NCBI RefSeq assembly: GCF_026619435.1
Contig: NZ_JAOVZQ010000001.1
Location: forward strand, 3,913,501 to 3,977,500
DNA from: Hoeflea ulvae
Lineage (GTDB): Bacteria > Pseudomonadota > Alphaproteobacteria > Rhizobiales > Rhizobiaceae
Length of the DNA stretch: 64,000 nucleotides
Direction of reading: 5' to 3'
A program made the position numbers and the translations under genes. The notes beneath the pieces were generated by a model. That model did no database searches, was not told where the DNA came from, and saw only the letters and a list, made by a program, of their open reading frames with translations. Positions 2,977 to 12,519 of the stretch are shown here, in pieces (positions within the stretch are counted from its first letter, which is position 1; each line of letters starts with the position of its first letter).

Positions 2977-4103
2977 GCGTGCGTGCTCCTGAATTGATCG
3001 GGGGTGATACCCCCCGCAATAGCTTCTGCCAGATCGGCAAGCAAGCGCGCCGCATCAGGTTTCCCTGTCGCCCTGGCGGCGGCTGCGGTGGCGGCAAGGC
3101 CGGTGGGATCGTTCATCCGGTCGGCAATCATGCCCGAAAGCACTTTCGGGGTCAGCTCGCCCTGCTTGATGACGCTGGCGCCGCCCATGGCCATAAGTGC
3201 TGCGGCATTGGCAGCCTGGTCATGGTCGAGCGCAAAGGGATAGGGCACCAGGATCGCGGAGCGGCCGATCACCGCGATTTCCGAAACCGTCGAGGCGCCC
3301 GAGCGCGAAATCACCAGATGCGCCGCCGCGATGCGCGAGGCCATGTCGTTAAAGAACGGCGAGACTTCGGCCTTGACGCCGAGCTCTTCAAGCCATGTCC
3401 TGAGATGGGCTTCATCTTCGGGGCGAGCCTGCTGGACCAGGTCCAGCCGCGCCCGCAGCTCCTGCGGCAGAAAGCCGATGGCCGCGGGAATGGCTTCCGA
3501 GAAGAACTGTGCACCCTGGCTGCCGCCGAACACCACCAGCCGGAACGTCTCGCCTGCCTCGGACGGGACATAGGGGATGTCCGCTGCCGCAATCACTTCC
3601 GGACGCACCGGGTTGCCGGTGATCACGATCTTGCTTGCATGCGCGCCCCTGCCTTCGGGCAGGAAGCCGCCGGCAATGGCCTTGACCCGGGAGGCCAGCG
3701 CCTTGTTGGCCCGGCCCATCACCGCGTTCTGCTCGTGCACCATTGTCGGCAGGCCGGCATTCGATGCCGCCAGCAAGGGCGGGATCGTCGGGTAGCCGCC
3801 AAAGCCGATCACCGCATCGGGCCGGATGGAGCGCATGAGCTTGCCGGCTTCGCGCACACCCTTGAACAGGGTCCACAGCGACTTGATCACCTTGACCGGG
3901 TTCTTCGACCCGATCGTCGCCGACCGCACCACATGGATTTCGGACGCCGGAAATGTGCCGGCGAACCGTGCCGCACGGCTGTCGGTGACCAGATGCACCC
4001 GGTGGCCCCGCGCGATGAGTTCATGTGCCAGCGCCTCGGCCGGAAACAGATGTCCGCCGGTGCCGCCCGCCGACAGCAGGAACAGTTTGCTCTCAGCCAT
4101 CAT
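2973..4103 (-). CDS. murG: UDP-N-acetylglucosamine--lipid I transferase MurG
   Basis: Glycosyltransferase (GT28) that transfers GlcNAc to lipid I to make lipid II at the inner face of the membrane. The 376-residue product shows the glycine-rich N-terminal loop [19 protein letters not shown] (about 11-29), [40 protein letters not shown] in the C-terminal half, and the UDP-GlcNAc-binding segment [16 protein letters not shown]. The start is two adjacent ATG codons one base after the ftsW stop. I annotate the first, but the second is equally possible. The stop overlaps the murC start as ATGA. Confidence 0.97.
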
Positions 4104-6677: not shown

Positions 6678-7781
6678 TCACCTCAGCTTCAGGGTCGCAA
6701 GCCCGATCATCGCGAGCCCGACCGAGATGATCCAGAACCGGACCACGATCTGGCTTTCGGTCCAGCCGAGTTTTTCGAAATGATGGTGGATCGGCGCCAT
6801 CAGGAAGACGCGCTTGCCGGTCATCTTGAACCAGCCAACCTGAATGATCACCGACAGCGCCTCAATGACGAACAGGCCGCCGATGATCGCCATGACGATC
6901 TCGTGCTTGGTGGCAACCGCCACGGTGCCGATCAGGCCGCCCAGCGCCAGCGAGCCGGTGTCGCCCATGAAGATCGCCGCCGGCGGCGCGTTGAACCACA
7001 AGAACCCGAGCCCGGCGCCGATCACTGCCCCGAGAATGACCGCCAGCTCACCGGTGCCGGGCACGAAATGGATCTGCAGGTAATTGGCGAACACGGCGTT
7101 ACCGGCGAGATAGGCGATGGCGCCAAAGGAGGCGGCGGCAATCATCACCGGCACGATGGCGAGTCCGTCGAGCCCGTCGGTCAGGTTGACCGCATTGCCG
7201 GCAGACACGATGACAAAGGCGCCGAAGACGATGAAGAAGAAGCCCAGATCGAACAGCAGGTCCTTGAAAAACGGAAATGCAACCGAGGTCCCGAACGTCG
7301 TGCCGTGGACGGTGGGCGCGGCCAGCGAGGCCTGCATGATGAAAAACACCGCGAGCCCGGCGATGATGAATTCCAGCCCGAGCCGCGCCTTGCCGGAAAA
7401 CCCCTTGTCGGTCTGCTTGGTGACCTTGAGATAGTCATCGTAAAAACCGATGGCGCCGAAGCCGAGGGTGACCAGCAGCGTCGTCACCACATAGACGCTC
7501 GACAGATCGGCCCACAACAGCGAGGAGCCGACGATGCCCGCCAGGATCATCAATCCGCCCATGGTCGGCGTGCCGGCCTTGAGGAAATGGGTCTGCGGTC
7601 CGTCGGCCCGGATCGGCTGGCCACGGCCCTGCCGCACCTTCAAAGAGGCGATGATTCGAGGTCCGAACAGAAACACAATCAGCGCCGCGGTGAACATTGC
7701 CGCCCCGGTCCTGAAGGTTATATATCTGAAAAGATTGAAAAACTGGGCCTTGTCCGCCAGATCCACCAACCAGATGAGCAT
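6678..7781 (-). CDS. mraY: Phospho-MurNAc-pentapeptide translocase MraY
   Basis: Integral membrane enzyme that transfers phospho-MurNAc-pentapeptide to undecaprenyl phosphate, giving lipid I. The 367-residue product has about ten hydrophobic segments and the catalytic signatures GFYDDYLKV (paired aspartates), [22 protein letters not shown] and the histidine motif [12 protein letters not shown]. Its size matches the family. It lies between the murE/murF gene and murD with short spacers of 21 and 4 bases. Confidence 0.98.
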
Positions 7782-7802: not shown

Positions 7803-10703
7803 TTAATCTTGAGTGCTGCTGTCAGGCAGTGCCGTATACTTGTCAAGCAACGCCTTGACGATGCGTCCGAAGCCGATACCGAGCGAGGACTTGACCATCA
7901 CCACATCGCCGTCGCGCAGCACGCTCTTGAGATGCTCGGCCAGCCCGCCGGCGTCTTCGCGGTAGACCGTTTCGACATCGGCCCCCAATTCGTCGCGAAG
8001 CACCCGGATCTCGGCGCCTGCAAGGCACACCATGTCGACATTGGCATTGCGCAGGGGGGCAGCCAGATCGCGGTGCACCCGTTCCGAAAAACGCCCCATC
8101 TCCAGCATGTCGCCCAGAACCGCAATGCGCCGCCCGCGCAGCCGGACCGGCGTGTCGCGCAGCAGCTCGAGCGCCGCGCGCATCGAAGCCGGATTGGCAT
8201 TGTAGCTCTCGTCGATCAGCACGAAGCGTCCACCGTCGATCTGGAGCGTGTGGCGGGCGCCGCGGCCCTTTTCGGCCGCAATACCGGCAAGCGCATGGAT
8301 CGCCTTGGCCAGATCCGCTTCGACAAGCTGGACTGCACCCAGCACCGCAAGCGCGTTCTGCACCAGGTGACGCCCCGGCGCGCCGATCTTGACCACGATA
8401 TCCTCGCCGCCAATGCGGGCAGTGATGGTCGAACAATCGGCAAGCAGCTTGCAATTGAGCAGCCGGTAGTCCGATTTGGGATTTTCGCCGAAGGAATGAA
8501 CATTGCCGACGCCGAGTTCACCGGCGCGCTTCCGCAGCCAGCCATATTTGTCATTGTCGCGGTTGAGCAGCAGATGGCCCTGCTTGCCCAGCCCTTCCAT
8601 GATTTCCGATTTCGCGGCAGCGATCTCGGTCAGGTTCTTGAAATTGCCCATATGCGCCGCCGCGATCGTGGTGATGATCGCCACATGCGGGCGCACCATC
8701 TTGACCAGCGGACGGATTTCGCCGGGATGGTTCATGCCGATTTCGAACACGCCGAACCTTGCGCTTGCCGGCATCCGCGCCAGCGTGAGCGGCACGCCCC
8801 AATGATTGTTGAAGGACGCCGCGGACGCATGCACCTCGCCGCTGGGTTCAAGCGCATGGCGCAGCATTTCCTTGCTCGAGGTCTTGCCGACCGAGCCGGT
8901 GACGGCGATGATCTTCGCCTCCGAGCGGGCGCGCGAGGCGCGGCCCAGATCTTCAAGCGCTTCGAGCACATCATTGACGACGATCATCGGCGCCGTCACC
9001 CGGCCGAGCGCCGGCAATTTGGATTCCGACACCACCAGCAGGCTTGCGCCATTGGCCACGGCCACACTGGCGAAATCATGCCCGTCGAAGCGGTCGCCCT
9101 TGATGGCGAAGAAGGCATCGCCCTCGCCCGCCGTCCGGCTGTCGATCGAAATGCCGACGACGCCGTCGGGAAAATTCCCGACCGGGCGGCCGTTCATGGC
9201 TTCGACCATGTCCTGTGTGGTCCACAACAAGCTCATGCCTTGAGATCCTCCAGCGCCTTGCGAGATCTCTGCATGATCCGAGAAAGGCAGGACCTTGTCA
9301 CCCACGGTCTGTCCCTGCTCATGCCCCTTGCCCGCAACGATCAGGGTATCGCCGGCGTTCAGAAGCGCGACGGCCTGTCTGATCGCCTCGGCGCGGTCGC
9401 CGATCTCGGTGGCGCCACCGGCCGCTGCCATGATCTCGGCGCGCACCGCCGCCGGATCCTCGGAGCGCGGATTGTCGTCGGTGACGATCACCACATCGGC
9501 CAGCCGGCTGGCGATTTCGCCCATGATCGGCCGCTTGCCGCGATCCCGGTCTCCGCCGCAGCCAAACACCACGACGATGCGCCCGGTGGTGAACGGCCGC
9601 ACCGCCTCGAGCACATTTTCCAGCGCCTCGGGCTTGTGCGCGTAATCCACATAGGCCGGCGCGCCCTCAGCCGTCGAGCCGATCAGTTCGAGCCGGCCCG
9701 AGGCGCCAGTCAGATGCTCGAGCGCCGCCATCACCTGGTCTGCGGAAGTGCCGGTGGCGATTGCCATGCCGGCGGCGACCAGCGCGTTTGAAATCTGGAA
9801 ATCACCCGCCAGCGGCAGATGCACCTCGAATATGCGTCCGTCATAATGAATTTCTGCAATCTGCTTGTGGCGCAGATGCTCCACCCGCTTGAGGCTCAGG
9901 AACCCGCCCTTGCGGCCAACGGTGAGCACGCGCGCGCCGGCGCGTTCGGCAGCTTCGACAGCGCGCCCCGACCAGACGTCATCGGCAAAGATCACCGCCG
10001 GCGCACCCTTGGGCAGAAGCGTGTCGAACAGCCGCATCTTAGCGGCCATATAGGAGTCCATGTCCGGATGGTAGTCGAGATGATCGCGGCCGAGATTGGT
10101 AAACCCGGCAACGCAAAGCGCGACGCCGTCAAGCCGGCGCTGGTCGAGGCCGTGACTGGAGGCTTCCATCGCCGCATGGGTGACTCCTTCGCTGGCGAGA
10201 TCGGCGAGAAGCCGGTGCAATGCCACCGGATCGGGCGTGGTCAGCGTGCCGTAATCGACCCGGCCGGGCGCGACCACCCCGGTGGTGCCGATCATTGCGG
10301 CCTGTTCGCCGGCATGGGCCCAGATCTGGCGCAGGAATGAGGCGACCGAGGTCTTGCCGGCAGTGCCGGTGACGGCTGCGATGATGCGCGGCTGGGGGCC
10401 GAAAAATGCCGCCGCCATGCGCGCCAGCGCCAGCCGTGGATCGGCGGCCCGAAGCACCGGCACCGCGACGTCGGAGAGATCCGCATCGGGGCCCGCGACA
10501 ATGGCCACGGCGCCGCTGGTAATGGCCTGGAGTGCAAACCGTGCGCCGTCGGTCTTCACGCCGGACAGCGCAAAGAACACGAAACCCGGCTCGACCGCGC
10601 GGCTGTCGGCAGTCAGTCCGGTCACGGGCAGGTCATGCTCGGGCAACGGCCCGTTGGCAAAGCTTTCTGGCGGCAGAGCGGAAATCAGGGCGGACAGTTT
10701 CAT
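7803..10703 (-). CDS. murE/murF: MurE-MurF continuous frame (bifunctional Mur ligase or single-base frameshift)
   Basis: One uninterrupted 966-codon frame. Residues 1 to about 488 are MurE (adds meso-DAP to UDP-MurNAc-L-Ala-D-Glu) and 490-966 are MurF (adds D-Ala-D-Ala). MurE shows the P-loop [13 protein letters not shown] (about 111-123) and the DAP-selecting DNPR motif inside [11 protein letters not shown]. MurF shows [15 protein letters not shown] and [15 protein letters not shown]. The start is the ATG of [10 protein letters not shown], because sequence upstream does not resemble MurE. At the junction a second frame still encodes RKALEDLKA followed by a stop that would overlap the MurF ATG at 9236 as ATGA, and GGAGG still precedes that ATG. 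So this looks like two ancestral genes joined by one inserted base near 9263. A real fusion (one is known in Bordetella) and a sequencing error both fit. Confidence 0.93.
9245..9251 (-). promoter_or_regulatory. Preserved ribosome binding site for internal MurF start
   Basis: Inside the continuous murE/murF frame, a GGAGG sits about ten bases upstream of an in-frame ATG at 9236 that begins [14 protein letters not shown], the expected N-terminus of MurF. A stand-alone 477-residue MurF could therefore still be made even if the fused frame is genuine. Confidence 0.6.
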
Positions 10704-10782
10704 GAAATGCACTGGTCTTTCGTGGTCGCTGTGGATGGCGGTTCGGGTTCGGCTGGTGCTGACCTGCCCGCCAGTTGTGTTA

Positions 10783-12519
10783 TCAGTATGACAGGGACAA
10801 TTCCTGCGCGCCGCTTCCGAATTGCGGTTTGACGCCGAGAAAGCCCGCCGAGCGGCGAATGACGGCACTAACCATCGGCGCCGCATTCAGGCCTGCTGTG
10901 GCCGAGTGCATGCCTTCCTCGGGCTTGGGCTCGTCCACCACCACCAGCACGACATATTGCGGATCGTCGATCGGAAATGCCGACAGGAAGGCGTTGAACC
11001 GCACCGCCGAGGAATAGCGGCCATTGACCACCTTTTCCGCCGTACCGGTCTTGCCGCCGACATGAAAGCCTTCGACTTCCGCGCGCCGGCCCGAGCCCTT
11101 GGCGACATTCAGCTCCATCAGGTAGCGCATGCTGTCGCTGGTGGCGGGCGAGATCACATTGACGGCGACCTTGTTGGCTTCCTCGACCGTGCGCGGCAGG
11201 AATGTCGGCTCGATCAGCTTGCCGCCATTCATCAGCGCGGCGGCGGCAACGGCGGTCTGCAACGGTGTCGTCGACACGCCATGGCCGAAGGAAATGGTGA
11301 TCGAATTGATTTTCTTCCAGACATCGGGCTGGTGCGGCGTCGCCACTTCCGGCAGTTCGGTCTGCATCCGCGACAGCAGTCCCAGGCGGGTGAGAAACTC
11401 CTGGTGCCCGTCAATGCCGACCAGATCGGCCATGCGGGCGGTGCCGATATTGGAGGAATAGATGAAGATTTCCGGCACTGAGAGCACCCGGTTCTTGCCG
11501 TGGAAATCGCGGATGGTGAAGCCGCCGATGCGGATCGATCCGCGCGCATCGAAGGAATCGGAAATTTTCACCTTGCCCGAATCGAGCGCCATGGCGGTGG
11601 TAAACGCCTTGAAGGTGGAGCCCATCTCATAGGTGCCTGCCGACATCCGGTTGAGCCGGTCCTTTTGCAGCGCTTCCACCGGATTGTTCGGATCGTAATC
11701 TGGCAGCGACGACATGCCGACCACTTCGCCGGTGTGAACATTGAGCACGACGCCGGCGGCGGCGATCGCCTTGTAGCGGTCCATGGCCGCGGCGAGCTCG
11801 TCGCGCAGCACATGCTGGACCCGAAGATCCAGCGACAGCTTGACCGGCTTCATGTCCTCATTGACCGTCATGCCGGCGGCGGCGAGATCGCCAAGCCCCT
11901 GCCCGTCGACATATTTTTCCATGCCGGCAATGCCGCGATTGTCGATATTGACGTGGCCGACGACATGCGAGGCTGTCGGTCCACCGGGGTAAAACCGCCG
12001 CGTTTCCGGCCGGAAGCCGATGCCGGGAATGCCCAGCGACAGGATCTGGCTCTGCTGCTTCGGGGTGAGTTGCCGTCGCAGCCACTGGAATCTCGAATTC
12101 GATGACAGCTTGCGATGAATGCCGCGCATGTCGAGATCGGGCAGCACTGTGGCAAGCAGCTCGACGGCCTCGTCGGCATCAACGATCTTGTTGGGTTCGG
12201 CAAACAGCGACACGGTACGAATGTCGGTGGCCAGCACCTCGCCATTGCGGTCGACGAGATCGGGGCGCGAGATCAGCAACTGGTCGGCGCGCTGGATCGA
12301 TGACACGGTTTCGGGCGAACGCATGCCATACTGGACAAGCCGCGCGCCGATGACGGAATAGATCACACCGAAACAGGCGATGGCGATGATGATGCGGTTT
12401 CGCGCCTGGGCGCCCTGCGCCTTGCGCACGCCCTCGAATTCGCGCTGGGAGCGGCTGTGGCCCTCCGCGGGGTGGCTGTCTGACATGCTGCCGGAGATAA
12501 AGTTGCCCAGGGTTCTCAT
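10783..12519 (-). CDS. ftsI: Septal peptidoglycan transpeptidase FtsI (PBP3)
   Basis: Class B penicillin-binding protein that cross-links septal peptidoglycan in the periplasm, anchored by one N-terminal membrane helix ([20 protein letters not shown], about 42-61). In the 578-residue product the dimerisation domain is followed by the transpeptidase with the active-site serine in [14 protein letters not shown], the SxN motif in [14 protein letters not shown], and KTG in [12 protein letters not shown]. The start is taken at the ATGA overlap with the ftsL stop. The N-terminal 40 residues are polar and cytoplasmic. murE begins 79 bases after the stop. Confidence 0.97.

Follow-up and report, generated by a model that had tools for sequence, protein, structure and literature searches.

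In the window (the whole stretch of 64,000 nucleotides from Hoeflea ulvae that was analysed), the genes for two Mur ligases, murE and murF, are read in one continuous frame, which raises the question of whether this organism carries a genuine MurE-MurF fusion or whether the two genes have been joined in the assembly only. As stated in a preliminary description of the sequence, the frame is open from MurE through MurF (7803-10886(-) in the minus-strand frame scan), and it encodes 966 amino acids when started at the MurE ATG at 10703 (-). NCBIfam models place MurE at residues 21-482 (NF001124) and MurF at residues 492-958 (NF010693) of this product, and the window sequence as it stands therefore holds both ligases in one open frame. 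The model for bifunctional MurE/MurF proteins (NF008896), which may be tuned to another lineage, gave 826.5 bits and did not reach its cut-off of 1023 bits. The features of the region are listed here, G000 being the window's own genome and G010 that of its nearest relative.

9233..10703, minus strand: murE, UDP-MurNAc-tripeptide synthetase (matches to TIGR01085 and NF001124; ATG at 10703)
TGA at 9235-9233, minus strand: end of murE in the frame used by the relatives (tail RKALEDLKA, then stop)
7803..9236, minus strand: murF, 477 amino acids (TIGR01143 and NF010693; ATG at 9236-9234 retained)
9263..9264, minus strand: single extra base joining the frames (G010 gaaattcgcaag, window gagatctcgcaag)
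9261..9267, plus strand: CGAGATC, the motif of other single-base insertions in G000 (from the insertion contexts)
9247..9251, minus strand: GGAGG, likely murF ribosome binding site (from the sequence; GGAG occurs at most 22 nucleotides upstream in 14 of 16 relatives)
6678..7781, minus strand: mraY, downstream neighbour, in an open frame (TIGR00445)
10783..12519, minus strand: penicillin-binding transpeptidase (ftsI-like), upstream neighbour, in an open frame (matches below curated cut-offs)

The surrounding cell-wall cluster is ordinary, with murC, murG, ftsW, murD, mraY and the penicillin-binding transpeptidase all in open frames; the latter we take to be ftsI from the usual order of the dcw cluster. 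At the junction the minus strand reads GAT CAT GCA GAG ATC TCG CAA GGC GCT GGA GGA TCT CAA GGC ATG AGC. From 9262 downwards the alternative frame gives RKALEDLKA followed by TGA, and this TGA overlaps the MurF ATG (9236-9234) as ATGA. The preliminary description had regarded the shifted frame below 9263 as a MurE C-terminus, had pointed to the ATGA overlap and to a GGAGG before the MurF ATG (at 9251-9247), and had explained the joined frames by one added base, for example the T at 9263. All of this was borne out, with the extra base at either 9263 or 9264, since the alignment gives no unique placement. There is no run of bases at the site, which rules out a homopolymer error at murE.

A search of the genus gave 18 genomes including G000, and in all 16 of the 17 other genomes in which the junction was covered murE and murF are separate genes with the same four-base ATGA overlap, their murF ATG aligning with that of the window. 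In the 17th (G009, 77% complete) MurE was matched over its first 97 residues only. Comparison with relatives had been proposed in the preliminary description, with absence of the extra base there, combined with low coverage of the source assembly, as an outcome speaking against a fusion. The first half of this applies: none of the 16 has the extra base or shares the fusion (0/16). The MurE tails of these relatives are of the same kind as that in the alternative frame of the window (e.g., SDHAEIRKALEGLKA, SDHAEIRKCLEDLKA and SDHEEIRAALKGVSA, each followed by the stop), and because tail type and four-base overlap recur in 16/16 relatives, the RKALEDLKA tail is not due to chance. At least 12 of the genus junctions are identical to those of database records that carry a Hoeflea species name or are MAGs, among them H. 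alexandrii, H. halophila and H. olei, which places the window in the genus of these species. A search of PLSDB with 20 kb of the plasmid of G000 gave as its best match a repABC stretch of Hoeflea sp. IMCC20628 with 91.8% identity, although records of the organism's own genome may be absent from that search. The junction of G010, which as the nearest relative has 90-91% protein identity, reads GAAATTCGCAAG as against GAGATCTCGCAAG in the window, which is one base longer. Over the stretch that begins with the CGC codon and ends with the TGA, a single base differs between the two, and the old murE frame thus shows no sign of decay.

Mur ligase fusions do occur elsewhere. A wider search of contigs yielded 441 loci, of which the best 80 were analysed (at least 12 of them repeating genus junctions): 55 had the four-base overlap, 16 had other spacings and nine (L038, L039, L040, L041, L044, L046, L047, L048 and L049, with junctions near 3400-3470) were in-frame fusions. 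Judged from their sequences, apparently genuine MurE-MurF fusions thus exist in related genera, in 9 of the best 80 of 441 loci. Those of Nitratireductor sp. XY-223, Hoeflea poritis and Flavimaribacter sediminis have the same order and domains as the window frame and 63-66% identity to it in the best segment. However, the in-frame fusions look unlike the window junction, because the position of the murF start is without a start codon in all nine (9/9 among the best 80 of 441 loci). These in-frame fusions of other Hyphomicrobiales further differ from the window in being found in several species, with an in-frame linker and no TGA overlap.

In protein searches, all 120 matches listed for the fused frame are at least 952 amino acids long and carry Mur ligase domains, and none exceeds 67% identity to the window frame, whereas among the 120 matches listed for each ligase alone the best identity is 92% for MurE and 92% for MurF. 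The missing close fused homologue is weak evidence, as the organism's own genome may lie outside the database. In some long matches to the fused frame (among P0047-P0119, approximately 1040-1340 amino acids), each alignment spans only about half of the query, as though a long additional stretch separated the two ligases, and a few of these matches carry a precomputed PF04613 domain.

Among the papers listed in literature searches, judged by title and the start of the abstract, a single one treats a MurE-MurF fusion at length (PMC6420597). According to its text, the bifunctional protein of Bordetella pertussis has been demonstrated at the protein level and is working, and fusions are also named for other Bordetella species, Pseudovibrio and certain archaea (PMC6420597). 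The comparison with a natural Bordetella fusion drawn in the preliminary description was therefore correct: in both cases MurE and MurF are combined in one polypeptide. But the fusion of B. pertussis is demonstrated as a protein (PMC6420597), while that of the window rests on one base in one assembly.

An 800-kb portion of G000 was compared with the corresponding region of G010. With G010 frames placed onto G000, 17 frameshift-like rows were obtained among 431 frames with an orthologue, and nine of these were kept, as was one of 13 from the reverse direction (pb_128). The filter does not pick up murE, whose shifted tail is too short, and this gene was therefore included by hand. Dropped from the former set were pa_214, 289, 325 and 574 (gaps in upstream extensions), pa_288 (a run of G), pa_400 (an 11-base gap), and pa_454 and pa_610 (frames that are probably not coding); those left out of the latter were pb_353 and pb_522 (sites already among the kept rows), pb_68 (a run of G), and pb_2, 15, 33, 55, 66, 324, 358, 559 and 629, mostly because the extra bases were in G010, because there was more than one gap or because the frame was probably antisense.

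This hand-picked set comprises 11 genes of G000, murE included, that have one inserted base relative to G010. By NCBIfam matches, which for names ending in "-like" lie below curated cut-offs, the other ten include carB, rsgA, a K+/H+ antiporter-like protein, a DoeA-like hydrolase, a dimethylsulfoniopropionate demethylase, a PotD-like binding protein, a 5-dehydro-4-deoxy-D-glucuronate isomerase and an allantoate amidohydrolase, and for two of the ten no family was matched at E 1e-10. Of the 11 insertions, six fall in CGAGATC (on one strand or the other) and three in CCAGTG; the remaining two are in CGAGGC and CGAGAC. When 11 coding positions were drawn at random 5000 times, at most three shared a 7-mer, a test that leans toward a reading error since the 11 genes were picked after their contexts had been seen. 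Two of the split genes are particularly informative.

G000:C1:4026526-4030012: carB, split by one inserted base at CGAGATC
G000:C1:4137444-4138518: rsgA, split by one inserted base at CGAGATC

Both arginine and pyrimidine synthesis depend on carB. This gene is whole in 15 of the 17 other genomes of the genus (in G016 it meets a contig edge and in G009 there is only a weak match); for three of these 15 matches an inner TGA was listed, which is the stop codon of carB itself (codon 1161). In G000 carB is present in two pieces with 97% and 96% identity and there is no other full copy. Similarly, rsgA forms one frame in 16 of the 17 other genus genomes searched, with no match in G013, and is split in two in G000. 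Conserved genes that are whole in relatives are thus interrupted in this assembly, and identity on the two sides of the break is 96-97% for carB and 89-97% for rsgA.

A count independent of gene selection was obtained from all one-base insertions that passed a flank-identity filter, whether coding or not. The two motifs were discovered in the first 800 kb (584,916 aligned bases) and fixed beforehand for a further 400 kb used as a hold-out (276,862 aligned bases). In the former, the inserted base lay in CGAGATC in seven cases and in CCAGTG in six, i.e., 13 of 77 insertions in G000 as compared to none of 61 in G010. In the hold-out the numbers were three and one, giving 4/31 as against 0/35 (Fisher p 0.04, which is weak alone, and 1e-4 when set against the background frequency of the motifs). 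Pooled, 17 of the 108 insertions in G000 and none of the 96 in G010 fall in a motif (Fisher p 1.2e-5). There is hence an excess of single-base insertions within CGAGATC and CCAGTG in G000, recurring in unrelated genes and on either strand, and the insertion in murE, which falls in CGAGATC, is among them. As placed by the aligner, the added base is the third or fourth letter of CGAGATC in eight of ten cases and the fourth to sixth letter of CCAGTG in seven of seven.

Several observations were counted against an error. In two of the ten CGAGATC cases the base is placed at the first or second letter; in an unfiltered ranking of 7-mers CGAGATC comes first (8/493) with GGCCGCC close behind (7/472), the top count for insertions in G010 being five; only three of the nine frameshift-like rows among the 213 orthologues of the hold-out have a motif insertion; G000 is listed as 100% complete in two contigs; and related genera do have apparently genuine MurE-MurF fusions. 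Most of the 108 insertions of G000 lie outside both motifs and may represent ordinary divergence, and many of its CGAGATC sites are genuine, since 217 of the 493 aligned ones are identical in G010. Among the hold-out rows, an 829-amino-acid frame (G000:C1:4545474) is split by a CCAGTG insertion and one of 538 amino acids (G000:C1:4600076) by a CGAGATC insertion, both with more than 94% identity on both sides. A second apparent fusion was also seen, in which two permease-like frames of G010 (presumably transporter permeases, from the appearance of the sequence) correspond to one frame of 588 amino acids in G000 (L167:9098-10864(-), G000:C1:4272598-4274364), with a G run that is shorter by one base than its counterpart in G010.

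Taken together, these sequence comparisons make it very probable that the extra base in murE is a consensus error, arising in basecalling or assembly, and that the fusion, although present in the assembly, is most likely absent from the organism, whose murE and murF would then be two genes overlapping by ATGA, as in the other members of the genus examined. The preliminary description had offered two readings, a sequencing or assembly error and a gene fusion caught at its origin; the motif-linked insertions support the former, and the latter has become unlikely. It would require a very recent one-base insertion that fused murE to murF, with a protein working as fusions do elsewhere. The frame is indeed open through both genes, in-frame fusions are found in other lineages, one of them a working protein according to the available part of PMC6420597, and the old murF start is still present together with its GGAGG. 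Nevertheless we consider a real insertion of this kind improbable: carB, rsgA and others are broken by insertions at the same motif in G000, the genuine-looking fusions have no start codon at the murF start position, and the matches listed contain no fused protein close to the window frame, with the reservation about the database given above. Equally small is the chance that a fusion was caught at birth in a single Hoeflea strain, where the old murF start would be usable and fused and separate MurF may coexist. A living strain with carB, rsgA and others all freshly broken is unlikely, and a reading error at the motifs explains them together.

Two further explanations accept the insertions as real, and to both we attach hardly any weight. 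Ordinary proteins might still be made from the interrupted genes by programmed frameshifting or four-base decoding, in keeping with the fact that several conserved genes of G000 have one extra base at a recurring motif and are conserved on both sides of it. However, no rescue at the level of translation is needed, and while carB and the antiporter-like gene have the motif on their coding strand, four others (murE, rsgA, the PotD-like gene and the amidohydrolase gene) have it on the opposite one. As the mRNA sequence differs between these two situations and a decoding signal would be strand-specific, such a signal, four-base decoding included, is disfavoured, and the occurrence of the motif on either strand relative to the genes speaks for a fault in reading the DNA instead of a signal in translation. 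Alternatively, a mutational process peculiar to the strain might insert bases at CGAGATC and CCAGTG. This would account for their concentration in G000 and absence in G010, but such a process would need to have disrupted carB and rsgA while leaving no visible decay in the rest of these genes, which have kept the high identities given above.

As to the origin of the presumed error, the bases found in G010 at eight CGAGATC insertion sites are CGAATT and CGAATC (twice each) and TGAATC, CGCATC, CGGATG and CAAAGC (once each), i.e., GAAT at five of the eight and something else at three, which suggests that CGAATC has been read as CGAGATC. The methyltransferase CcrM targets GANTC, of which GAATC is an instance, and G000 encodes a CcrM homologue of 377 residues (E 7e-165 to 6pbd, which we take to be the Caulobacter enzyme) as well as one C5 methyltransferase. 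An additional match resembling N6/N4-methyltransferases (G000:C1:778372-779646) consists of two pieces in swapped order, one of them with four stops, and is either a permuted or a broken copy. Presumably base modification disturbs the reading and leads to extra bases at the motifs; CGAGATC would then often be a misread CGAATC whose GANTC site is methylated by CcrM, and CCAGTG would come from misreading a CCAGG-like site that a different methyltransferase modifies. Of 179 aligned CGAATC sites of G010, 77 are kept in G000 and two read CGAGATC; the motif is therefore not sufficient for an insertion, and for this reason we infer the cause, whereas the motif-linked excess is a matter of observation.

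Errors linked to modification have been described in general (PMC10687267, in its available part). As far as the accessible text of PMC12710330 goes, GANTC is methylated in Alphaproteobacteria, most SNP errors in nanopore assemblies of agrobacteria, which belong to the same family as the window's genome, are near likely methylated motifs including GANTC, and indel errors can give apparent frameshifts. In Brucella, the corresponding portion of PMC12392509 links GANTC to two potential errors and reports methylated motifs to be mostly error-free. According to one of these three papers, in the part consulted, depth does not remove motif errors (PMC10687267, PMC12710330 or PMC12392509). The long-read errors excerpted there resemble those of G000 in recurring at short motifs and in producing apparent frameshifts (PMC10687267, PMC12710330, PMC12392509). 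They differ in that methylation in the agrobacteria is tied chiefly to substitutions in the passages available (PMC12710330), while the marker in G000 is a one-base insertion; in that the cited assemblies are nanopore or long-read ones, as stated in those passages, which may not be the platform of G000; and in that CCAGTG, as the second motif, is not mentioned in the accessible parts of PMC10687267, PMC12710330 and PMC12392509.

A motif-specific consensus error can thus mimic a convincing gene fusion, even when the genome consists of two contigs and is given as 100% complete. Gene pairs that overlap by ATGA are easily fused by a one-base insertion, since the frame of the second gene is open even before the overlap, in the 16 relatives for 12 to 1488 nucleotides. 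Catalogues of fusions that are based on single assemblies should be compared with close relatives and screened for error motifs. Should the extra base in murE be real after all, this Hoeflea strain would offer a rare direct view of a Mur ligase fusion at its beginning.
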